In this document: piece after piece, positions 18,511 to 30,598 of the stretch
How the letters are laid out: every line of letters begins with the position of its first letter
Position numbering within the stretch: the first letter of the stretch is position 1
Program-made: the position numbers and the translations under genes
Assembly (NCBI GenBank): GCA_002840165.1
Contig: PGZN01000002.1
Span: 1 to 64,000, forward strand
Direction: 5' to 3'
Length of the DNA: 64,000 bases
Source of the DNA: Firmicutes bacterium HGW-Firmicutes-8
GTDB taxonomy: Bacteria > Bacillota > Thermincolia > Thermincolales > UBA2595
Notes under the pieces: model-generated
The model's input: the letters and a program-made list of their open reading frames with translations, nothing else
Told to the model about the DNA's origin: nothing
Databases searched by the model: none

Positions 18511-21039
18511 CTATTCAATGTAAATTGCGTCGTAGACTACATCTGCAGGTGCCAACTTGACCTTATTATCCTTGTCAAGGTAGTTGTAGAAGTCAACAAC
18601 CTTGCCGTTGCTAAGGTCGCTCAGGCTGCCCTCTACGGTGCCTGTTGTAGTCTTCTTGAAGACTTTGACATTCTTGGAGATTACAGTGTACTCAGTATCA
18701 CCAGTGCCCCATCTTACTTCGATAACTGTAGCCAGTTCATTAACATCAGTTACAGTCTTGTTAACTACAGGAGTATCAGTATCCTGGATATCTGTAATCT
18801 TGGTGCCTGCGGTATTGAACTTAACCAGAAGAACATCGTTCTTAACCAGAGCAGATTGCTCACTCTGCTCATCATATGCAATGGCGGTTACTTCATAAGT
18901 AAGAGCAGCTTTACCAGGCTCGATAATAGTGATACCCCACTTGCCATCGCCAACTGCTATAGCCTTGCCGGTAAGAATAGCCGGTTTCAGGCCGCTTGCA
19001 ACATCAGCTTTACTGTCGACGAAAACATACTTCAGTTTGGCATCCTTGTAGTAAGCCGTGAGTGTCTTACCAGCAGCCAGTTGATCGAATGCAAAGGACT
19101 CGCCGGCAGACCAGGTTACAACTTCAGCTTCGTATACGAAGTCAGTGTCACCATCGCTGGCGCCATACTTTTTGACCTTGACAATCTTAGTGTCGCTGTC
19201 AGCAAACTTCTGAACGCCACCAGTTGTAATATAATCCTGATCCTTATTAACAGCAGTAACTGCACCATTGCTAATTGTTGCAATCTTTTCTACCTTGCCT
19301 GTGCTGTCCAGGGTCAGTTTAACTACCATCATAGGTGTCACATCAGGTGTGGAGTCTTCATTGATGTCAATTTGCTGAGAACTGTTAATAGGATCACTAC
19401 CAAAATCACTGTAGGTATAATCGTCATTGTCGATTACGTATTCAACTGCAGTACCATCCATTTTGGTAACTTGAATCTTGTTGGTGTAGTTGCCGCTGGC
19501 GCCTTCTCTGTAAATCTGGCGAATAAATGCATCGGAGGCGTTAGCATCAGCGGTGGCTCCTGCAATTACCTGCACTAGATTACCTTGGGCATCAAGCTTG
19601 GCAGTCACAGTCTTGCTTACAAGCTTGGTACCAACGGTAGACACGCTGGTAGTTCTGGCATTGATGGTGTCTCCTCCGTCATCGGAGTAGAAAATACCTG
19701 CTTCTGTACTGTATTTTGCCTTACCGTCGATAACGAGTTTGAGCGAGGTGCTTCCTACAGTAGCAGCTGAATCCAGTTTACCGGTTACTACCTCGTCAGA
19801 AACATAAATGGAGTAAGAAGTGCCATTCTTATAGTAAGATACTACATCTCCGGCCTTGATGTCAGCCAGGGAAATAATCTTACCACCCTTAATAATTTCC
19901 ATGTTCTTGGCATCAACGTTTTTCAGGTCAAGAGCAGAAATCTTCTTGAACTCAATCTTGTTGTCAGTAGTATTTACTGCCTTGACAACATCGGCATCGG
20001 TGTAATTCTTGTCGATGATGGAAACGATCTTGCCACTGTCATTCAGGGACAGGGTTACATACATTCCCGCAACGGGAAGGCCAAAGTAATCGAAACTGGT
20101 AGCAGTGGTAAATTCGCCCTGACCAAAGATTTTAATTTTGTCATAAACTGCGGCAACAGTGGTAATTGAATCGATTTTACCGGATACAAGTTTGCCGGCA
20201 GGGGCTATCGCAACAACTTTCTTGTCATTGCCGTCTGCCTTCCAGTAAATTTTAGCATGGATACCAAAGAAGGCGGAAGCAGGAGTGGTTAATCCCCACT
20301 TGTACTCGACAGCTGCAGTACCAATTTTAAAGCTGATTTTGTCGGTTGGTGTTCCTGTAAAACCAGGACCGGCTTCTTCAATGAGACCATCTGCTGTTTC
20401 GGTAACTTTCTGCTTCTCAACAAGTAATGTACCGATTTCACCGTATACTTTCTCACCTTTATTGTTAGTTGTAACTAAACCCCACATCTTAGTATCGAGG
20501 GCATTATCGGCAAGAATAAATACATTGCCCCGGGTAGCGGGAGCCGTAAAGTCAGCAACTACCATGCTGTCAAGAAGTTGCAGTTCAGCAGCTTTAGCTA
20601 CATAGGAAGTCGGGTATACTGCATTTTCCATTGTGTCAGCATATCCCAGCATCCTTACAACCATGGTAATAGATTCATTGTAACTAACATTTTGTGCGGG
20701 TTTAAAGGTACCGTCCGGATAACCGGCCAGAATCCCCTGACTTACAGCGATGTTAATTACGCCAGAAGCCCAATGGTCTGCCTTAACATCTGAAAACTTC
20801 GTGTTACCTGTAACATACTTAGCAGCTTCACCTAAGCCGAGAGATTGAACCACAATAGCGGCATACTCAGCACGTGTGATGTTCTGCTCAGGTTTAAACT
20901 CGCCGTCGCCATAACCAACAACGACACCAAGAGCATTCAGCCTGCTGACAGCATCATCATTTGTCTTGGCAGATACTCCAGGTGCGGCGAATGCGAAGAT
21001 AAACATTGCTACGGTTATGAGTGCAATCATTCTTTTCAT
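18511..21039 (-). CDS. SLH-domain surface protein, probable major S-layer protein
   Basis: About 842 residues with a signal peptide (ALITVAMFIFAFAAPGVSA, cut before KTNDD), then three S-layer homology repeats in the first ~190 residues (VVGYGDGEFKPEQNITRAEY; FSDVKADHWASGVINIAV; ILAGYPDGTFKPAQNVSYNE), followed by ~650 residues of Thr/Val/Ala/Asp-rich beta-type sequence without recognisable enzymatic motifs. SLH repeats bind pyruvylated secondary cell-wall polymer, and csaB lies 1.7 kb upstream. The fourth-codon ATG at 21039 is preferred because TAGGAG then has a 9-nt spacing; the first ATG at 21048 would have only 1 nt. Size, signal, long leader and strong terminator suggest an abundant structural protein. 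Confidence 0.9.
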   Translation of the reverse strand: MKRMIALITVAMFIFAFAAPGVSAKTNDDAVSRLNALGVVVGYGDGEFKPEQNITRAEYAAIVVQSLGLGEAAKYVTGNTKFSDVKADHWASGVINIAVSQGILAGYPDGTFKPAQNVSYNESITMVVRMLGYADTMENAVYPTSYVAKAAELQLLDSMVVADFTAPATRGNVFILADNALDTKMWGLVTTNNKGEKVYGEIGTLLVEKQKVTETADGLIEEAGPGFTGTPTDKISFKIGTAAVEYKWGLTTPASAFFGIHAKIYWKADGNDKKVVAIAPAGKLVSGKIDSITTVAAVYDKIKIFGQGEFTTATSFDYFGLPVAGMYVTLSLNDSGKIVSIIDKNYTDADVVKAVNTTDNKIEFKKISALDLKNVDAKNMEIIKGGKIISLADIKAGDVVSYYKNGTSYSIYVSDEVVTGKLDSAATVGSTSLKLVIDGKAKYSTEAGIFYSDDGGDTINARTTSVSTVGTKLVSKTVTAKLDAQGNLVQVIAGATADANASDAFIRQIYREGASGNYTNKIQVTKMDGTAVEYVIDNDDYTYSDFGSDPINSSQQIDINEDSTPDVTPMMVVKLTLDSTGKVEKIATISNGAVTAVNKDQDYITTGGVQKFADSDTKIVKVKKYGASDGDTDFVYEAEVVTWSAGESFAFDQLAAGKTLTAYYKDAKLKYVFVDSKADVASGLKPAILTGKAIAVGDGKWGITIIEPGKAALTYEVTAIAYDEQSEQSALVKNDVLLVKFNTAGTKITDIQDTDTPVVNKTVTDVNELATVIEVRWGTGDTEYTVISKNVKVFKKTTTGTVEGSLSDLSNGKVVDFYNYLDKDNKVKLAPADVVYDAIYIE

Positions 21040-21048
21040 TTTTCTCAT

Positions 21049-21397
21049 TCTCCTAAGATCCCCCTTTACTTTTCTTTAATCTCTTTTTTGAAGCTTAATT
21101 AAAAACTGGTTTATTACTTGTTGCGGTCAACACCCCCTTCAAGTAGTCTTATTATGAACCCATAAAGCTAAAGGCTGATTACCTTTAGAAACTTAGAACT
21201 GCATAATTTGACTCATTCCTATTTTATTCTACAGGCTGGATATGTTTTCCTGCATTTTCCCGGATTTTTTTTCGGATAATAATGTTTCGTGAAGCTTATG
21301 TAATGTCCCTGTCATTGTATTCATAGATATTCGAGGATATGTTGTGCTTTAGTGGGGTCAGCAGAGGAATTTTTTATTTTTTCTTGTACATTTTGGC
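21049..21397 (-). promoter_or_regulatory. Long structured 5' leader region of the SLH gene
   Basis: This 349-nt gap lies between the two SLH genes. On the minus strand it holds a 7-bp hairpin (21168-21188, CTAAAGG/CCTTTAG) and, closer to the start, a 6-bp stem TACTTG/CAAGTA (21115-21120 with 21140-21145) enclosing a G-rich loop. I found no promoter that satisfies both -35 and -10, and no match to a riboswitch class I know. Long leaders are common for S-layer genes, where they stabilise mRNA; here that is inference. Confidence 0.35.
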
Positions 21398-22660
21398 CTA
21401 TATTTTTGTTTCAGCTAATATCTGGTTCAGTTTATCTACGAAAGTAATCGTCCCCGGGGCCCCCTGGAGAAGTTCAACCTTAACGAGGGTAAACGGGTAG
21501 GTAATTACCGGAATAAATACAGTATTCTGGTCAGGGTCGGTGAGGTCAATCCATACCCTGTAATAAACACCCTCTTCGTCCACGGTGCGGGATACTTTGG
21601 TAATGTCAACAAAAAAACCGCTCGTCATTTTCCCCCCACGGGCAGCCAGCAAATATAATTGATTACCGGCTTTATTAAACAAGTAATTTTCGGAAGCCTT
21701 GCTTTTTTCCACCCATTCCCGGATATCATCAGGTTCCATGGCAGGGTCAACCTGTTCCACGCCTATCAGGTCAGGGATAACCTTCTGGGCAATAATCACC
21801 GTCAAACCCAAAGAATCGTTACTGATAATTGTTATGAAATTTCCCTCGGCCATTTCATCAACAGAGGCGGGTCTGTTATTTAGGTAGCTGATGTACTGTG
21901 CAGGCAGACTAAATTCGGTGTCTTTTCCGTCCCCGTAAATTTCTGAAATTACAATTTTTTGCCGGTCGACTGATTTAATTAAACCGGAAACCTGTCCGGA
22001 ATCATCAAAGGGAATCTGTTCGTTAATGTTGCTGAGCAAAACGGCGATTTCCGCTCTGGAAATGGGACTTGACGGTTGAAAGATACCGTTGGGATAACCG
22101 TTCATTATCTTTCTCTCAACCGCAATTGAAATACTTGCTTTGGTTATCTGGTCAACCTGTAAGACATCGTTAAAGGGGAGAACTGCCTCTTTCATCCTTC
22201 CTGCCCGTTTGGTCAGGCCCAAAGCCCTAACGGCTAATACCGCCCCGTCCTGCCTGATTAGGGGCTGTTGAAGTGAAATCTTTTGCAGTTCGCTGTAGTG
22301 GAGAAGCTCATTTCTTAGCGCTAATTCTACATATCCCGCAGCCCATTTCGGGATGTTAAACATTCCGCTTATACTGCTTTCGTCTATATCGCTATTTGAC
22401 GGCACATATCCAAGAAGCTTGTTAAACATAGCGATAGCTTCCAGAAACGTCACAGGCTTCCTGGGGTTATATTTTGCATCCCCGTAACCCTTGATAACGT
22501 CTCTGGCATACATCTCAACTATTTCAGCCTCAGCCCAGTGCCCTTTAATATCCCTAAAGGGGAGACCGGCAGAAGGTTGATCGTTTGCAACAGATGGCGG
22601 GACAAAAATCATCTGCAGTATAACAAGGACGGTCACCACTCGTGATGATATAATTTTCAA
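21398..22660 (-). CDS. SLH-domain secreted protein
   Basis: About 420 residues. The start is a TTG at 22660, placed 8 nt behind GGGAGG and giving a clean signal peptide (VVTVLVILQMIFVPPSVA); the frame open to 22690 places that ribosome site inside the coding sequence. Three SLH repeats fill roughly residues 35-225: FRDIKGHWAEAEIVEMYA, a divergent middle one, and FNDVLQVDQITKASISIAVE followed by YPNGIFQPSSPISRAE. The remaining ~195 residues have beta-type composition and no known motif. It follows csaB by about 100 nt. Probably a wall-anchored protein of low abundance. Confidence 0.83.
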   Translation of the reverse strand: MKIISSRVVTVLVILQMIFVPPSVANDQPSAGLPFRDIKGHWAEAEIVEMYARDVIKGYGDAKYNPRKPVTFLEAIAMFNKLLGYVPSNSDIDESSISGMFNIPKWAAGYVELALRNELLHYSELQKISLQQPLIRQDGAVLAVRALGLTKRAGRMKEAVLPFNDVLQVDQITKASISIAVERKIMNGYPNGIFQPSSPISRAEIAVLLSNINEQIPFDDSGQVSGLIKSVDRQKIVISEIYGDGKDTEFSLPAQYISYLNNRPASVDEMAEGNFITIISNDSLGLTVIIAQKVIPDLIGVEQVDPAMEPDDIREWVEKSKASENYLFNKAGNQLYLLAARGGKMTSGFFVDITKVSRTVDEEGVYYRVWIDLTDPDQNTVFIPVITYPFTLVKVELLQGAPGTITFVDKLNQILAETKI

Positions 22661-22768
22661 ATTCAGGGACCTCCCTTCATAAAATGCCATTTATTGCAAC
22701 TACTATATTTATCGAGTTTGGATCCTGTTTTTTGGGGGTAATACTGCTGTCTGGGATGATTTCAACGG

Positions 22769-23860
22769 TTACTTTGTTTTACCGGTGAGGAGGTCGGCAG
22801 CAATTTGGCTGTTGCGGAGGGCTTTCCGGCGGAGGGCTGTTTTATCGGTGAGGAGTTTCTGCCTGATGTTATCCAGATTGGCAATCACCTCCTCAATCTC
22901 CCCGACAAGGCGCAGGGAAGTTACGGAGGCCAAGTCTTCAACAACCGGCTGACCGATAGATGCCAGGAATTCCGAAACCTTGGGGTCATAGCTGAGCCCT
23001 ACCATCGGCACCCCGGCCACAGCGGCAATAATCAAGGCATGCAGTCTCATCCCGACAACGATTTTCATCGAACTGACGAGTCCAACGGCCTGCATAAAGT
23101 TGAGGCCCTGTTCAATGAGATGGGGTTTGTTTTTCATCATTCCGGCGATTTCTTTAGCGGGGGCGTTGTCTCCGGGGTACTGCATCGGGACAAACATGGC
23201 CTCCCATCCCCGGTCATACATGCTGTCCGCCATCCCGGCCACGGCCTTCTTCCAGCCGGCGGGCCCGGGCCATTCGCGGATAAAAATTCCGGCGACGGGT
23301 TTCCCCGGCGGGGTAATACCCAAGGCAGCATATGGGTCAGCGGTAATGTCCAGCTCAGTCCCAAATACGGGGTCAGCCGTGATTTCGACAGGCGGCTGAG
23401 TCACTCCGATTTCCCGCAGCAAATCGGCCGAAGCCGGGTCTCTGAGGGTAATCATGTCTACCCTATTAGCGATAAGCCTGACGAGCATCCTGCCAAATGG
23501 CCTGTTGACAGGGCCTATGCCTTGGGCGTAAAACATCACCGGTTTGCCGAGCAGCCCGGCCACAGCTGCGATGCCCAGGTAATATGGGATAGTAAGCGGC
23601 CCGGTGACATCCTGCAGTAAGCTGCCCCCGCCGCTGATAAACAGATCGGCTTTACTCAAAGCAGTAATAATCGAAATGGGATTAAGCCTGCTGACAGCCT
23701 CTACACCATAGCGGGAACGTGTCTGTCCAGGCTGGGCTGACAAAACAACAATGCGCAGGTCAGGGAGTTCTGACTTTAACGCACTGATTATTGAAGCCAG
23801 GAGGGCTTCGTCACCTATATTATCATATCCATAATACCCGGATATCACGACTGTTTTCAT
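22769..23860 (-). CDS. csaB: Polysaccharide pyruvyl transferase CsaB
   Basis: A 363-residue polysaccharide pyruvyl transferase family protein. It begins VVISGYYGYDNIGDEALL, the diagnostic GxxGxxNxGDE motif, followed by DLFISGGGSLLQD and PVMFYAQGIGP, and ends in a GT-B-like C-terminal half with MRLHALIIAAVAGVP. CsaB adds ketal-linked pyruvate to secondary cell-wall polysaccharide, which makes the polymer a ligand for SLH domains. Neighbours on both sides encode SLH proteins, supporting that role. It lies 43 nt after the LCP gene. Confidence 0.95.
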   Translation of the reverse strand: MKTVVISGYYGYDNIGDEALLASIISALKSELPDLRIVVLSAQPGQTRSRYGVEAVSRLNPISIITALSKADLFISGGGSLLQDVTGPLTIPYYLGIAAVAGLLGKPVMFYAQGIGPVNRPFGRMLVRLIANRVDMITLRDPASADLLREIGVTQPPVEITADPVFGTELDITADPYAALGITPPGKPVAGIFIREWPGPAGWKKAVAGMADSMYDRGWEAMFVPMQYPGDNAPAKEIAGMMKNKPHLIEQGLNFMQAVGLVSSMKIVVGMRLHALIIAAVAGVPMVGLSYDPKVSEFLASIGQPVVEDLASVTSLRLVGEIEEVIANLDNIRQKLLTDKTALRRKALRNSQIAADLLTGKTK

Positions 23861-23903
23861 TACCTCTGGTCCCTTCCAGGCGGCGTTTTACCTCTTTGCC
23901 TGT

Positions 23904-24905
23904 TTAATTAACTATCCCCGGAGCGGCTGCCGGGATTTCATCAGTTAATATCTTGTCCATGTAGAGCTTAAGTTCTTCCTCATCCACAACATAATAGCTG
24001 GCCCCATTAATATACTGCGGTAAACCCGGGATATCCGAGAACCTGATATTGTCCGGGCTGATATTCTTAAACTCACTGATTAAAACGAGAAGATCGGCTG
24101 TTGACATATCTGTTTTCACATTACTGTGCAGTTCCCCGGCGATTTCGGGCAGTTTAAGAAGAGTTTTGGGCTGCAGAACTTGAACTGCCAACAACCCCAG
24201 GAACCGGTGCTGCCGCTCAATCCTCGGCAGGTCACCCTTACCGTCGCTTCTGTACCGCACATAAGACAGGGCATCATGCCCATCAAGGCGCTGCGGCCCT
24301 TTTCGCAGGTTGATGTCTTCGGCCGGGTAGTACATTCTCTTTTCGACATCAACCTCAACCCCCCCAAGAGAGTCAATAATGTTTTCAAACCCGCTGAAAT
24401 TGGTCTCAATGTAATTATGGATTGGTGTTCCCAACAACTGTCCGGCTGTTTTCCTGGCCAGTTCGGTCCCCCCGTTGGCATAAGCATGATTAATCCTGGT
24501 CGGGTTGGCCAATCCTTCAATTTTAACACGGGTATCGCGGGGTATAGAAATAACCTGAACTGTCTTGTCTTTTAAGTTTAACATTGCCACCATAAGTGTA
24601 TCCGAACGGGAAGGCTCATTATTCCTCTGGTCTACTCCGATTATCATTATGTTCAGCCGGTGGTTGTCCCAACCCCCGCCCTGCTGGGCGCTGGCGGCAT
24701 TAATCCGGTTGTTGAAATACCGGTCAGCAATATAGATCCACAAACTGTCAGCATAAACAAAAGCATAAATCAAAGCCCCCATGATTACCAAAATACAAAA
24801 TGAAGTGAGAAATAACCGGCCCTTTCTTGTTCTTCTCAGTTTAAGCCGGTGAAGCCTAGTTTGTTCATCATAAGCGGCCTGGTCAAACCTACTGAAATCC
24901 GGCAT
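23904..24905 (-). CDS. LytR-CpsA-Psr (LCP) family cell-wall polymer ligase
   Basis: About 333 residues. A basic cytoplasmic tail is followed by one membrane segment (FLTSFCILVIMGALIYAFVYA) and an extracellular LCP domain with IMIIGVDQRNNEPSRSDTLMV, VISIPRDTRVKIEG and DLPRIERQHRFL, which carry the Asp and Arg residues that bind the polyprenyl pyrophosphate and metal. LCP proteins transfer lipid-linked polymers to peptidoglycan. The ATG at 24905 has AAAGGA 7 nt upstream; the longer frame to 24944 overlaps the SLH gene before it. Lying between an SLH gene and csaB, it may attach the secondary polymer that SLH proteins bind. Confidence 0.92.
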   Translation of the reverse strand: MPDFSRFDQAAYDEQTRLHRLKLRRTRKGRLFLTSFCILVIMGALIYAFVYADSLWIYIADRYFNNRINAASAQQGGGWDNHRLNIMIIGVDQRNNEPSRSDTLMVAMLNLKDKTVQVISIPRDTRVKIEGLANPTRINHAYANGGTELARKTAGQLLGTPIHNYIETNFSGFENIIDSLGGVEVDVEKRMYYPAEDINLRKGPQRLDGHDALSYVRYRSDGKGDLPRIERQHRFLGLLAVQVLQPKTLLKLPEIAGELHSNVKTDMSTADLLVLISEFKNISPDNIRFSDIPGLPQYINGASYYVVDEEELKLYMDKILTDEIPAAAPGIVN

Positions 24906-24921
24906 TATGTTGTCCTTTCTG

Positions 24922-25668
24922 CTATTTCCGGCGTGATGGGTCAAGGGCCTTCGCTAAGAATACGGCTGCTTCCGCCCTTCTAACCAAAGCGGCCGGCCGG
25001 AAGGTCTTGTCTTCAAATCCTATGCTTATCCCGTTATCGGCCAATCTCTGAATTGCGTCATAAGCCCAGTAACTTATCGGCACATCTATGAATTCGTCGG
25101 CTCTGTTGATTCTCTTTAAATCAAACGCCTTCGCCAGCATCATGGCCATCTGGCCTCTTGTTACATAGTCTTCCGGTTTAAATTTTCCTCCGGGGAAACC
25201 GGAAATAATCCCTGCCTTCTGGGCAGCGGCGATTTGGGCGCCGGCCCAGTGCCCCTTAGGGACATCGATAAAGCCGGTTTCCGTACCCACTGTCGGCAGT
25301 TCAAGGGCTTTAACGAGCATAACAGCCAGTTCACACCGGCGAGCCTGGTTGTCTGGCCCGAACTTTTGGCCCCCCAGGCCGGTGATAATGCCTTTTTCAG
25401 TCATCAACTGAATATCACTGAAAGCCCAGTATGTAGAAGGGACATCTGTGAATTTGGGCTGTTCACGGGTAGCCTTCAGTTGGGCAACCTCCGCCTGCAG
25501 TGAACTGATCTGTTCCTGAATAGGTTTAAACACTTTATCGGCATAGCTTTTGGAAATAACCGGATTGCTGCTGCTGCCGGGAGGTCCGGATGAGGCGATA
25601 ACTGCCTGGGCGATTATAAAACCAACCAGTAAAGGCAGCACGAATAAATACCGTTTTTTTATCTGCAT
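24922..25668 (-). CDS. SLH-domain protein with N-terminal membrane anchor and coiled coil
   Basis: About 248 residues: an N-terminal hydrophobic segment (LFVLPLLVGFIIAQAVIA), a Gly/Pro/Ser-rich stretch, a short coiled coil (FKPIQEQISSLQAEVAQLK), then three consecutive well-formed SLH repeats to the C-terminus (FTDVPSTYWAFSDIQLM, FIDVPKGHWAGAQIAAA, FIDVPISYWAYDAIQRL). This could tether the membrane to the SLH-binding wall polymer, as small SLH anchor proteins do. The ATG at 25668 is preferred over a GTG at 25677. Its N-terminal 65 residues resemble the whole small protein encoded just upstream. Confidence 0.88.
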   Translation of the reverse strand: MQIKKRYLFVLPLLVGFIIAQAVIASSGPPGSSSNPVISKSYADKVFKPIQEQISSLQAEVAQLKATREQPKFTDVPSTYWAFSDIQLMTEKGIITGLGGQKFGPDNQARRCELAVMLVKALELPTVGTETGFIDVPKGHWAGAQIAAAQKAGIISGFPGGKFKPEDYVTRGQMAMMLAKAFDLKRINRADEFIDVPISYWAYDAIQRLADNGISIGFEDKTFRPAALVRRAEAAVFLAKALDPSRRK

Positions 25669-25715
25669 AACAATCACATCCGCCGTATTATTTTAGCCTT
25701 CCTAAACCGGTCAGC

Positions 25716-25989: not shown

Positions 25990-26029
25990 TCTACAAAAAA
26001 ATACAGGCTTCACCGAAGCCTGTATTTTT
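25990..26029 (-). terminator. Rho-independent terminator of the mbl-flagellar unit
   Basis: A perfect stem (arms near 25996-26011 and 26015-26029, loop of 3) is followed on the minus strand by a T-rich tail. It overlaps the stop codon of the LCP-like gene at 26028-26030, so the last gene runs directly into the hairpin. It separates the mbl-flhO-flhP-flgJ-LCP-like genes from the S-layer genes. Confidence 0.9.
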
Positions 26030-26993
26030 ACTGTGTAATTTCATATATTATGTTTTTCCACGTCTGCTCCGGGACAAATAGGTATTTCAAATTTCCTTTT
26101 ATATATTCACTCCCCGGCAGGGCTGTTTTATCCATATGGGCCAGATCCATCTGCCTGCTGAGGTAAAATACTCCCAACATCTGTTCAGTCGAAAAATTTG
26201 TGCTGATATCATGCGCAAAAACCCATAACAGTTTGGGCAGTTTGAACAGGATTTCCGGTTGGAGGGCCTGGGAAGCTATGGCTCTGACTACATTCCGGTC
26301 ATCAGTGCGCAGTCCTGCCGCTGTCTGCTCAAAGGCCTCCAACATCGTTATTTTGCCGTCATTAACACTCAAGACCCCCATGATATCACTTAACTTCTGT
26401 AAAGCGGTCTGGTTTACATGGATAAGGTTGGGGATGTCGATATCAAGCCGCTGCTCAAGAAACGCCCGGAGAGCTTCCTGGCCTTTTTCCCGGTATAAGT
26501 CCTGTACTGTATAAAAGCCCGGCCCGGCAATATATCCGTTCCCCGTAATCAGAGAGGTACTGTTATTTACGACGGTATGCAGGGGTATGACAACTATGGC
26601 GGCCTGCTTTGTAGCTTTATTAAAACTTGTAATGGAAATAACCTTTAACACATCATTGTCTATCCACAGGTACATGATGTTAAAACAGTCAGCCCGGCGG
26701 TTAAAAGCCGTCCTGGCAGCTTCCGGCTGAAAGACCTCCACCGCCCGCGTTCCAGCCTCCGGGCTGCTTTTCTCAACTTCCAGCGAGGCCGGACTGTATG
26801 AACTATCCTGGCCGGTTCTCAGCCAGTGCCCGGCAAGTATTGTACTCCTAACGGGAGACCCGGTGCGGCCTAACTTGGTCCAGGCCTTTTCGATTTCTGC
26901 GGCCTGAAAAAAAAGTACTGTCAGGGCAGCCATCAATGTCCCGATAAAAATACCGGAAATAACACGCGGCGCCCGGTGATTCTGCCTTCTCAT
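26028..26993 (-). CDS. Divergent LCP-like membrane protein lacking canonical catalytic residues
   Basis: About 321 residues with an N-terminal membrane segment (VISGIFIGTLMAALTVLFFQ) and an extracellular domain that aligns in order with the LCP protein at 23904-24905: VNQTALQKLSDIMGVLSV against the IDSLGGVEV region, then RNVVRAIASQALQPEILFKLP against RIERQHRFLGLLAVQVLQP. Where the true LCP protein has IPRDTRVK this one has IPLHTVVN, and the SRSDTLMV and RIERQHR positions are also altered. It is probably a pseudoenzyme or a regulator. The ATG at 26993 has AAGGAGG 7 nt upstream. It follows flgJ, an odd place for a wall-polymer ligase. Confidence 0.72.
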   Translation of the reverse strand: MRRQNHRAPRVISGIFIGTLMAALTVLFFQAAEIEKAWTKLGRTGSPVRSTILAGHWLRTGQDSSYSPASLEVEKSSPEAGTRAVEVFQPEAARTAFNRRADCFNIMYLWIDNDVLKVISITSFNKATKQAAIVVIPLHTVVNNSTSLITGNGYIAGPGFYTVQDLYREKGQEALRAFLEQRLDIDIPNLIHVNQTALQKLSDIMGVLSVNDGKITMLEAFEQTAAGLRTDDRNVVRAIASQALQPEILFKLPKLLWVFAHDISTNFSTEQMLGVFYLSRQMDLAHMDKTALPGSEYIKGNLKYLFVPEQTWKNIIYEITQ

Positions 26994-27065
26994 AAAGAAA
27001 CCTCCTTCAGCCAAGTACTATTATTCGCTGGAGGAGGAAAAACCATACAGATTCAGGTTTTTTTA

Positions 27066-27416
27066 TTACTTTTTCTTCAGCTGTTCATAAATGATTTGGG
27101 CCAAGCCCAGGCTGCTGCTCTCAGCCGCTTTCAGGCTGACTTCCTGGTCCAGCATACCCTGAAATATCTTCTCACCCATGGATTCTTCGAATAACCCGCC
27201 TTTGACAACCGTTTCCCGCATTTTCTGAAACATCTGGTAGATAAACAGGGCTTCGAACTGTTTGGCGGCCTCCTTTAAATCCTTGTCTTCTTTGGAAGCC
27301 AGGGCTTTATCCAATACCTGTTTAAACTGCTCATCAGCCGGTTTAACATAGCCCCTGTTCCCCTGGTCGGGGACGGCGCCGATGACCTGAGTCATTCCTA
27401 ATCCATCAACCTTCAC
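27066..27416 (-). CDS. flgJ: Flagellar rod-binding protein, FlgJ N-terminal domain only
   Basis: About 116 residues. The region EAAKQFEALFIYQMFQKMRETVVKGGLFEESMGEKIFQGMLDQEVS is the rod-binding (Rod-N) domain of FlgJ, with the typical FEAxFxxQM and GEKxFxxMLD patterns (only parts are conserved). The C-terminal muramidase domain of proteobacterial FlgJ is absent, which is usual in Gram-positives. A GTG start at 27416 with AGGTGG 5 nt upstream is preferred. It follows the FlgG-like gene by about 20 nt and probably acts in rod assembly at the cell wall. Confidence 0.85.
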   Translation of the reverse strand: MKVDGLGMTQVIGAVPDQGNRGYVKPADEQFKQVLDKALASKEDKDLKEAAKQFEALFIYQMFQKMRETVVKGGLFEESMGEKIFQGMLDQEVSLKAAESSSLGLAQIIYEQLKKK

Positions 27417-27434
27417 AAATACCACCTGCTTTCA

Positions 27435-28628
27435 TTAGCGGCGCAGTAACGCGTTAGCTTGACTGAGCATGTCATCAGAGGTCTTGATTGAACGTGAACA
27501 TAACTCGTAAGCTCTCTGAGCAATCATCATATTAACCATCTCCTCGGCAACCTGGACATTCGACATTTCCAGATTGCCGGGGACCACCGAGAACTCTTCG
27601 GCAGTCTGAGCATTACCTGAATTGGCAGTTTGAATATAGAGGTTGGAACCTATCTTTTCCAGACCGGCAGGGTTGGCAAACTGGACTATACTAAGCCTGC
27701 CTTCTTCTGTTGAAATGTTAATCACACCATCACTGTTAGCAGTTACTGTGTCACCTGTCTTCAGCGGGGATCCCGATGTATCCACAAATACTTCAGGCTC
27801 TAGGGGGTAACCCTTATCAATCGTAACGAGCCTGCCGTTTTCGTCAATCTCAAAACTGCTGTCAGTAACATACCCAGTATCACCTTCGGGAAGAGTGACC
27901 TGATAATATACCTGCGGTTTGGGTCTTTCTTCTTTGACCACCGGCAGGGGATTACCTTCTTCATCTGTAGGTACCTCAAGTTCGGCGTCGGCTTCTTCCT
28001 GGGCAGCCAGGGCGTCTGCCAAAAGGATGGGCTCCCCGGATTCCTCGGTCGGAATGAATACACCGTCTTCGGCTTTTCCAAGGTCCTTGGCTGATGTAAA
28101 CGTATAGGCTTCCAAGGCTAATAATTCTTTATCCCGATAGAAAATACCGCTGTCATCAATATTAAGTTTCGAAGCACCCTCAGGAAATGTTACGAGCCCC
28201 GGTTCTGTGCCATTTATATTAACCAAATAACCACTCGCCGTAACAAGGTCTCCATCGGCGTCAATCTTAAAAGATCCGTCCCTGGTGTAAGCCTTGGACC
28301 CGTCAGGGAGTAATACCTCAAAAAAGGCATTGCCGGTAATGGCAAAATCCGTAGGATTCCCAGTCAACTGCAGGCCTCCCTGTTCAAGCAGCATTTGAGT
28401 TGCCGCCGGTCTTGTCCCGGTTCCTACCTGGATTCCATTCTCTACAACCTGCCCGTTCCTCGTCTGCCGACCGGGTCCCCTGATGTTATTGTAAAGCAGG
28501 TCCTGAAATTCCACCCGGTTCTTTTTGTAGCCCGGAGTATTGATATTAGTAATATTGTTGGCCACAGTATCCATCGAAGTTTGTTGAGCAAGCATTCCCG
28601 CGCTTGCTGACCATAACGCTTGTAACAT
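27435..28628 (-). CDS. flgG: FlgG-type flagellar rod/hook-basal body protein with duplicated middle domain (FlhP homologue)
   Basis: A 397-residue flagellar basal-body protein. The N-terminus LWSASAGMLAQQTSMDTVANNITNINTPGYKK and the C-terminus VPGNLEMSNVQVAEEMVNMM, ending AYELCSRSIKTSDDML, are the conserved coiled-coil ends of FlgG/FlhP (only short pieces cited here as landmarks). The family is normally about 260 residues; the extra ~135 come from a repeat of the middle beta-domain: LPDGSKAYTRDGSFKID at ~107-123 recurs as LPEGDTGYVTDSSFEID at ~246-262, separated by an acidic linker (~195-238). By position (mbl, flhO, flhP) it is the B. subtilis FlhP equivalent. It should be exported by the flagellar type III apparatus. 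Confidence 0.92.
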   Translation of the reverse strand: MLQALWSASAGMLAQQTSMDTVANNITNINTPGYKKNRVEFQDLLYNNIRGPGRQTRNGQVVENGIQVGTGTRPAATQMLLEQGGLQLTGNPTDFAITGNAFFEVLLPDGSKAYTRDGSFKIDADGDLVTASGYLVNINGTEPGLVTFPEGASKLNIDDSGIFYRDKELLALEAYTFTSAKDLGKAEDGVFIPTEESGEPILLADALAAQEEADAELEVPTDEEGNPLPVVKEERPKPQVYYQVTLPEGDTGYVTDSSFEIDENGRLVTIDKGYPLEPEVFVDTSGSPLKTGDTVTANSDGVINISTEEGRLSIVQFANPAGLEKIGSNLYIQTANSGNAQTAEEFSVVPGNLEMSNVQVAEEMVNMMIAQRAYELCSRSIKTSDDMLSQANALLRR

Positions 28629-28770
28629 GGCTCTTCCCCCTTATTTATCGCTGTTTAAAAAAGAAATTTAAACAGCTTTACCGCCTCAGTCGGTCGGCGG
28701 TTAGAGAGGCTTCCGCGCAGCGGTCCAGCCCCGCACATATTAATTTTTACCCTTCACAGCTGTTTTACGA
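28629..28770 (-). other. Structured spacer between the two flagellar rod genes
   Basis: A 142-nt gap inside an otherwise compact operon. It contains a perfect 10-bp hairpin GCTGTTTAAA/TTTAAACAGC (28650-28676, loop of 7), a stem ACCGCC/GGCGGT near 28681-28703 and a short CCGC/GCGG stem near 28710. None is followed by a clear T-run, so these look like mRNA-processing or stability structures, or a decayed insertion, rather than a terminator. Confidence 0.4.
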
Positions 28771-29569: not shown

Positions 29570-30598
29570 TTAAATTACTTTTTTGGCGAGTTTGTTGGTG
29601 TCAGGTAGTACACTGATCATTGACAGGGCTTTACCTGTGCCAAGGGCTACACATGAAAGGGGGTCATCGGCGACATATACCGGGAGGGAAGTTTCCTTAC
29701 TGAGCAGGATATCCAGGCCATTAAGGATAGAGCCTCCACCGGTCAGCACTATCCCTTTATTAATGATATCAGCAGACAATTCCGGAGGGGTCTTTTCCAA
29801 AACTTCCCTGACTGCCCCTACTACAGCTTCAATCGTTTCCTGCATCGCTTCAAATGTCTGCCGGCTTGTCACCGTTACAGTCTTGGGCAATCCCGAGACG
29901 AGGTCACGCCCTCTGATGTCCATAGAATCGTTTTCTATCTTACCCTGAGGATAAGCTGTACCGATATTTATTTTTAATTCTTCGGCTGTTCTTTCTCCAA
30001 TCATCAAATTAAATTCGCGGCGGATAAACCTGACAATTGCCTCATCAAACTTGTCCCCTCCAACTCTGAGCGAAGCGCTGGCTACAATACCGCCCAGGGA
30101 AAGCACGGCCACATCGGTCGTTCCCCCGCCAATATCAACAACCATACAGCCGCTCGGTTCGGAAATTTCCAGACCGGCGCCCAGAGCGGCGGCTAACGGC
30201 TCTTCTATAAGGTGGGCTTGTCTTGCTCCAGCCTGCAGAGCAGCCTGGCGGACCGCTCTTTCCTCAACTCCGGTAACCCCTGAAGGAATGCATACCATTA
30301 TCCGGGGACGAAAGAAAAATCTCCGGCCGCACGCCTTGGTTATAAAGTAACGCAGCATCTTTTCAGTAACATCATAATCGGCGATGACCCCTTCCCGCAG
30401 CGGACGGGTAGCAATGATATTTCCGGGGGTACGCCCGAGCATGCGGCGAGCCTCCTCACCAAGGGCAATTATTTTTCCGGTATCTTTATCCATCGCAACA
30501 ACAGACGGTTCTCTTAAAACAATTCCCTTTCCTTTTACAAACACCAACACACTGGCTGTCCCTAAGTCTACTCCGATGTCAGCACCAAACCCGAACAT
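29570..30598 (-). CDS. mbl: MreB-like cell-shape protein Mbl
   Basis: A 342-residue bacterial actin. The N-terminal phosphate-1 loop is DIGVDLGTASVLVFVKGKG, phosphate-2 is MVVDIGGGTTDVAVLSLGG, and the adenosine loop region is GIVLTGGGSILNGLD. MreB/Mbl polymers attach under the membrane and guide wall synthesis. The spoIIID-mbl-flhO-flhP order identifies it as Mbl rather than the MreB of the mreBCD operon. The start at 30598 has AAAGGGG upstream. It is likely transcribed both with spoIIID and separately. Confidence 0.95.
   Translation of the reverse strand: MFGFGADIGVDLGTASVLVFVKGKGIVLREPSVVAMDKDTGKIIALGEEARRMLGRTPGNIIATRPLREGVIADYDVTEKMLRYFITKACGRRFFFRPRIMVCIPSGVTGVEERAVRQAALQAGARQAHLIEEPLAAALGAGLEISEPSGCMVVDIGGGTTDVAVLSLGGIVASASLRVGGDKFDEAIVRFIRREFNLMIGERTAEELKINIGTAYPQGKIENDSMDIRGRDLVSGLPKTVTVTSRQTFEAMQETIEAVVGAVREVLEKTPPELSADIINKGIVLTGGGSILNGLDILLSKETSLPVYVADDPLSCVALGTGKALSMISVLPDTNKLAKKVI

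Follow-up and report, generated by a model that had tools for sequence, protein, structure and literature searches.

The FlgG-type protein encoded in the window, a stretch of 64,000 nucleotides of DNA, is a predicted distal-rod subunit that carries its D1 unit twice. Conservation and structural models indicate that copy 1 most likely contributes its first half, and copy 2 its second half, to one rebuilt D1, and that the material between them forms an extra domain. We regard this overall explanation, a duplication of D1 in FlgG with a nested fold and an outer extra domain, as probable. The gene is preceded by a leader RNA, which is the more unexpected result of the locus. The genome assembly that contains the window has 108 contigs and is 91% complete. 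For the analysis, the segments of each D1 unit were called a (first half), m (middle) and b (second half) and numbered by copy. The features of the locus and the segments of the protein are as follows.

27435-28628, minus strand: flgG (flhP-type) distal-rod gene, 397 aa, ATG start, stop codon included; TIGR02488, PF00460, PF22692 twice, PF06429
28771-29526, minus strand: flgF (flhO-type), 251 aa, ordinary single D1; TIGR02490 196.5 bits, cut-off 178.5
27066-27425, minus strand: rod-binding protein gene (N-terminal FlgJ type), 119 aa; PF10135 E 2.6e-16
29570-30598, minus strand: mbl (MreB/Mbl), upstream neighbour; PF06723 E 2.8e-145
28669-28735, minus strand: structured RNA of two hairpins between flgF and flgG, ~40 nt ahead of the flgG start codon, from covariation and a covariance model
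28356-28628, minus strand: residues 1-91, D0 helix of the N-terminus and Dc, FlgG-specific stretch included, from an ungapped alignment to Salmonella FlgG
28215-28355, minus strand: residues 92-138 (a1), the conserved first half of copy 1, which belongs to the predicted rebuilt D1, from conservation and models
28014-28214, minus strand: residues 139-205 (m1 and b1), middle and second half of copy 1, from conservation, with boundaries set by us
27921-28013, minus strand: residues 206-236, acidic, variable linker between the copies, the lowest segment in identity within the family (38%)
27702-27920, minus strand: residues 237-309 (a2 and m2), first half and middle of copy 2, with a2 less conserved than a1
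27594-27701, minus strand: residues 310-345 (b2), the conserved second half of copy 2, predicted to complete the rebuilt D1, from conservation and models
27438-27593, minus strand: residues 346-397, last D1 strand and C-terminal D0 helix; PF06429 at residues 350-394

By its sequence the 397-aa protein is an FlgG/FlhP-type distal-rod subunit. We call it a variant of FlgG because it has two PF22692 stretches and 397 aa instead of a single D1 and ~260 aa. The best NCBIfam match is the FlgG model TIGR02488 (298.1 bits, cut-off 252.75), split in two stretches, which bears out the FlgG-type assignment of the sequence-only reading. Two other FlgG models stay below their cut-offs (NF009456, 294.8/416; NF009278, 213.7/350), and both the N-terminal PF00460 (36.0 bits) and the C-terminal PF06429 (66.1 bits) lie above theirs. 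Residues 1-103 align without gaps to Salmonella FlgG, so that the FlgG-specific stretch is present; according to PMC5288503, this stretch comprises residues 46-65 in Salmonella and is missing from FlgE. The gene order on the minus strand is spoIID, spoIIID, mbl, flgF, flgG and the rod-binding gene. FlhO corresponds to FlgF and FlhP to FlgG as the last rod subunits of Bacillus subtilis according to PMC12153297. Generally, the flhO and flhP genes of B. subtilis also come after mbl. Compared with the FlgG/FlhP family (TIGR02488) and Salmonella FlgG (PDB entries 5wrh, 6jf2 and 7cbm), the protein shares the D0 helices, the Dc region with the FlgG-specific stretch, D1 and the gene order flgF-flgG-rod-binding gene, but it has the D1 unit twice, 397 aa versus ~260, and an extra domain. 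That it is instead a hook protein (FlgE) or another axial protein is very improbable. A domain nested in D1 is a trait of FlgE, and the FlgF model TIGR02490 is also passed, narrowly (182.7 bits, cut-off 178.5). However, TIGR02488 scores best, and among the best 25 of 31 families all FlgE models are below cut-off, the highest being NF004241 with 186.5 against 469. The genome also has its own FlgF adjoining and a separate FlgE-like frame of 425 aa (contig C12, L003), and a gene with the FlgG-specific stretch sits here between flgF and the rod-binding gene.

The duplicated middle domain proposed earlier is confirmed at the level of the D1 family. PF22692 (FlgE/F/G D1) matches the protein at 28143-28343 (E 3.2e-20) and again at 27717-27908 (E 1.6e-9), both above Pfam's curated cut-off. 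Local alignment of residues 91-236 with residues 237-350 (BLOSUM62) scores 91, against a mean of 30.7 (sd 5.7) and a maximum of 63 in 2000 shuffles. The repeat unit is the whole D1, about residues 96-205 and 237-345, with the acidic variable linker between them. The copies start at F102 and Y241, exactly the 139 residues apart that had been estimated. Two PF22692 stretches are also found in each of six scanned full-length double homologues. An assembly error around 27.8-28.1 kb had been named as a possible cause; it is ruled out in practice by colinear full-length homologues with 63-64% identity in four genomes of the same family (G001, G004, G007 and G008). With the same architecture in independent assemblies of other genera, an assembly or chimera artefact has a negligible probability.

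How the two copies are laid out can be read from their conservation. Against 40 single-form FlgG proteins (258-269 aa after trimming), the identity is 0.53-0.61 for a1 and 0.41-0.53 for a2, with 0.60 among the singles themselves; for the second halves it is 0.11-0.32 for b1 and 0.42-0.51 for b2, with 0.59 among the singles. The order a1 > a2 and b2 > b1 holds in all four sets, namely within the family, against G009, within the second class described below, and between the classes. The half-by-half conservation thus crosses the two copies, and the conserved domain is therefore a1 plus b2. The diverged b1 probably belongs to the insert, as the models also suggest. Since m1 and m2 diverge equally from single-form FlgG, the exact insertion point is not fixed by conservation.

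AlphaFold2 models built on 9 sequences point to the same arrangement. The full-length model (pLDDT 66.4, pTM 0.45, D0 not modelled) has a match range of 84-352, which fits nested and tandem layouts alike because the last strand is common to both. Residues 92-340 were therefore modelled without that strand (pLDDT 84.3, pTM 0.62). In the VIA-align search with this model all 21 FlgG/FlgF/FlgE rows run from model residue 1-3 to 249, and the seven FlgG rows cover chain residues 92 to 201-202 with 108-110 residues at 2.1-2.5 Å; the search output gives first and last aligned residues and not contacts, and the nesting is read from those ranges. Unrelated rows follow with Z <= 2.6. Foldseek alignments of 116 columns between this model and Salmonella FlgG chains superpose at ~22-23 Å. 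Judging by their length, these alignments are taken to be one contiguous D1 copy, and such a value is expected when one contiguous copy is spread over two domains. In searches of structure libraries, where the insert region was covered as part of the larger models, no fold besides FlgG/F/E stood out for it.

The plain reading of a tandem duplication would be a side-by-side arrangement, in which a1-b1 and a2-b2 would each fold as a D1 of the usual kind, the first or second of them in the rod wall and the other shifted to its side. Each copy matches PF22692 contiguously and each contiguous copy is ~40% identical to Salmonella FlgG. The two layouts differ little in overall identity to Salmonella FlgG (45.8% nested, 40.5% tandem), which makes it a weak criterion. 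However, the crossed conservation speaks against two ordinary units, the model of residues 92-340 superposes a1 plus b2 and not one copy on the D1 of FlgG, and in alignments to the Salmonella D1 the nested pairings score 219-231 and the single copies 188 and 205. We consider the side-by-side arrangement unlikely. The earlier proposal of an extra domain is thus retained, while two ordinary D1 domains side by side are not what the models show; they place the insert nested in a rebuilt D1. The nested layout given by our models would resemble that of the hook protein FlgE (PDB entries 1wlg and 3a69), where the extra domain is D2. PMC5288503 places D2 of FlgE (141-286) inside D1. Unlike FlgE, the variant is not assigned to the FlgE family by score, and its insert would consist of D1-derived halves, an origin that we do not claim for the D2 of FlgE.

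The double form is rare and limited to two classes in a sample of 398 genomes of the phylum. With the window's FlgG as query some match is found in 54 of 61 relatives. FlgG is present in seven of the ten genomes of the window's class, as a double form in six and as a single form in one. The double forms are those of G000, G001, G004, G007 and G008, with ~390 aa, and that of G009, from another family of the same taxonomic order, with 362 aa. The single form of 256 aa belongs to G002, a member of the window's own family. No FlgG is found in G003, G005 and G006, whose genomes are 61-75% complete. In a second class all four genomes, from three families, have a double FlgG of 373-377 aa. The statement on rarity is based on the census of the 398 genomes with a profile of nine double FlgG proteins, which gives ten full-length matches of 556-679 bits at a threshold of E <= 1e-55, so that more divergent double forms may escape. 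The next match is G002 with 260 bits over its first half. Three census rows of 426-454 aa that cover nearly the whole profile at 192-211 bits (G387, G366 and G264) were taken as hook proteins. In a separate scan, among the matches listed, the long frames of G172, G372, G193, G225 and G057 were rejected as double forms, their length coming from N-terminal frame extensions, and that of G312:C176 is FlgE-like.

We favour a single ancient duplication of D1, followed by a loss in G002, from the comparison of sequences. When the D1 units are treed individually, the copy-1 units of both classes group in one clade (98/97), separate from copy 2 and the 40 singles, although the tool warns of long branches meeting at this clade. 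All six alternative groupings that were tried survive the AU test (p 0.15-0.26). One origin is accordingly favoured rather than established: the copy-1 clade is strong, but the AU tests decide nothing. Two independent duplications, one in each class, are possible but somewhat doubtful. Groupings that hold copy 1 and copy 2 of each class together are not rejected (p 0.152 and 0.204), the linkers and the insert lengths differ between the classes, and the two double-form classes are not sisters in a tree of the conserved ends of FlgG (row L066, identical to L035, was dropped from the FlgG trees). In the AtpA tree, used as a proxy for the species, the classes are near each other and their sisterhood is without support (40/0). 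On the other hand, the AtpA of the second class is 82-83% identical to that of the window's genome, the highest value outside the window's class, and this closeness, like the copy-1 clade, argues against two separate events. The AtpA tree has 21 rows from 27 genomes with a match; G010, G029 and G057 were not entered, and G023, G047 and G037 were lost by the motif filter. AtpA is a fragment in G011 and has no match in G016, G028 and G048.

The single form of G002 can be compared with the double form segment by segment. Its 256-aa FlgG has the order a1-m1-b2 with the halves joined directly. The segments match a1 with z 15-17.5 and b2 with z 15-17, against z 3-6 for b1 and z < 3 for m2. Its m segment matches m1 of four family members with z 8-11 and that of G009 with 2.4, and it is unlike the 40 singles (mean z 0.9, maximum 2.7). 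The protein reads as a double form that lost b1, the linker, a2 and m2, as if the insert had been excised. Alternatively, the m1-like segment may be ancestral to the window's family.

FlgG and FlgE share a fold, with FlgG building the thin stiff rod and FlgE the thicker flexible hook with its outer D2 layer. In the mechanism that we propose, an in-frame tandem duplication of D1 in an ancestor would have given the order a1-b1-linker-a2-b2. The a1 and b2 segments, which adjoin the D0 helices, would form a normal D1 packed in the rod wall. The additional outer domain, made of b1, the linker and a2, would branch off from D1 in the manner of D2 in FlgE. By analogy with D2 on the hook, we infer that this domain projects at the outer face of the rod. 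The distal rod consists of about two dozen FlgG subunits, and as many subunits of this kind would put an outer layer on it and give it a hook-like rather than a rod-like diameter. The widths are 13 nm for the rod and 18 nm for the hook according to PMC5288503. A literature search at the level of search results, covering few subscription papers, returned no description of a double-D1 FlgG.

The role of the extra domain might be that of a built-in bushing or spacer between the rod and the thick cell wall, a guess made because the genomes of both double-form classes are without the P-ring protein FlgI. FlgI was not found in any of the 11 genomes of the two classes. It was also not found in four of five other, single-form genomes, so that its absence is unspecific as a correlate of the double form and the bushing role is not indicated by gene content. 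Passage through an S-layered wall had been offered as the reason for the extra domain. This link is unsupported, because genomes with a single form carry SLH domains too: all 11 genomes of the two double-form classes have them, among these G002 with its single form (74 matches), and so do 10 of the 11 remaining genomes, all of single form, which makes 21 of 22 whatever the form of FlgG. The window itself has a wall cluster at 18511-25677 (minus strand) with three SLH proteins, a LytR-CpsA-Psr protein and a polysaccharide pyruvyl transferase, which we take to be CsaB-like. The 328-aa protein at 26028-27014 (minus strand), which Pfam does not match at 1e-3, is similar in its C-terminal part to the LytR-CpsA-Psr protein at 23904-24944 (E 1e-6 when these two sequences are compared) and perhaps represents a degenerate member of that family.

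The gap between flgF and flgG is 142 nt long, and its two-hairpin sequence is present there in seven genomes of the window's class. A first, strict pattern matched 3 of 16 genomes. Many single-form flgG genes, and also flgE genes, turned out in a pattern search to be preceded by similar two-hairpin sequences. From 50 pattern hits, 36 were chosen by eye for the alignment; the 14 left out comprise some true ones (L060, L070, L082, L084 and L096 were later matched) and some chance hits in coding sequence. RNAalifold on the 36 sequences gives 17 paired columns, 13 of them with compensatory changes. In this alignment 90.8% of cells pair versus 73.8% in shuffles, and the covariation is 0.554 versus 0.236 when shuffled and at most 0.188 when slid. 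In 15 further matches aligned to the model (14 distinct, one at the place of a training row), pairing is 93.7% and covariation 0.487, above all 500 shuffles. For pairs changed on both sides, 75 of 500 shuffles reach the value of the 36 sequences and 0 of 500 that of the 15 further matches.

The covariance model, run on 61 whole genomes, gives 73 matches from 48 of them, which have one to three each. It finds no RNA in the seven genomes without any FlgE/F/G match, and none in six of the 54 genomes with one (G012, G017, G020, G026, G037 and G053). Of the 73 matches, 68 lie 11-184 nt (median 29.5) upstream of an FlgG- or FlgE-type frame on the same strand. Exceptions are two matches at contig ends just behind flgD (G003 and G050), a weak one at G036:C17 and one in G052 with no listed gene. 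At L157 (G043:C5:29783-29847, minus strand) a copy with the flgG-type inner stem lies behind mbl and an FlgF-like frame, with no flgG after it, while the flgG of G043 has its own RNA copy on another contig; L157 is possibly the leftover of a moved flgG. In G013 and G059 of the second class the RNA is ahead of flgE only. Two of 20 named loci gave a match to the model, one from an unclassified Bacillota MAG and the other from Desulfocucumis palustris.

The RNA has an invariant GGAC and a GA-NN-GA-NN-GA loop. Its inner stem is mostly of the CNGC type ahead of flgG and CCUC/GAGG ahead of flgE. It starts with CCUC in 21 of 21 rows ahead of flgE, some of which repeat a place and two of which were assigned by an upstream flgD, and in none of the 29 flgG rows. 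A third hairpin, with a 10-bp stem, is seen at 28650-28690 (minus strand), between the two-hairpin RNA and the ribosome-binding site of flgG; this region has another sequence in G001, G004 and G008. Rfam 15 gives 0 matches across the whole window and 0 in the 301 bases around the RNA (E <= 10). With 10 loci (E <= 1) it gives nothing at the RNA element; T-boxes and one weak match lie elsewhere, at three loci. The T-box leaders (114-120 bits) are ~0.3-1.4 kb from flgG at L012, L055 and L064, all of one family. The leader is in our view presumably comparable to CsrA-type leader sites in being structured, in lying directly ahead of a flagellar gene and in having an invariant GGA. It differs from these and from the cis-regulatory RNAs of Rfam in its two hairpins, the invariant GGAC, the GA-NN-GA-NN-GA loop and the lack of an Rfam 15 match. 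The literature search, again of search results and few subscription papers, found no description of a two-hairpin leader of flgG or flgE. We are fairly confident that the leader is a real, previously undescribed RNA family dedicated to the flagellar axial genes flgG and flgE. One regulator or the export machinery could recognise both rod and hook mRNAs and tell them apart by the inner stem.

The flagellar rod of these bacteria may have a hook-like outer domain, made from a shuffled second D1 copy nested in the first. This domain may have persisted from a time before two bacterial classes diverged, with one later excision. An FlgG with a domain nested in its D1 would show a way in which a protein can gain an outer layer out of its own sequence, and G002 provides a natural comparison without the insert inside the same family. 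If the leader RNA works in cells, it would give a direct handle on the timing and balance of rod and hook synthesis in bacteria whose flagella span a wall.
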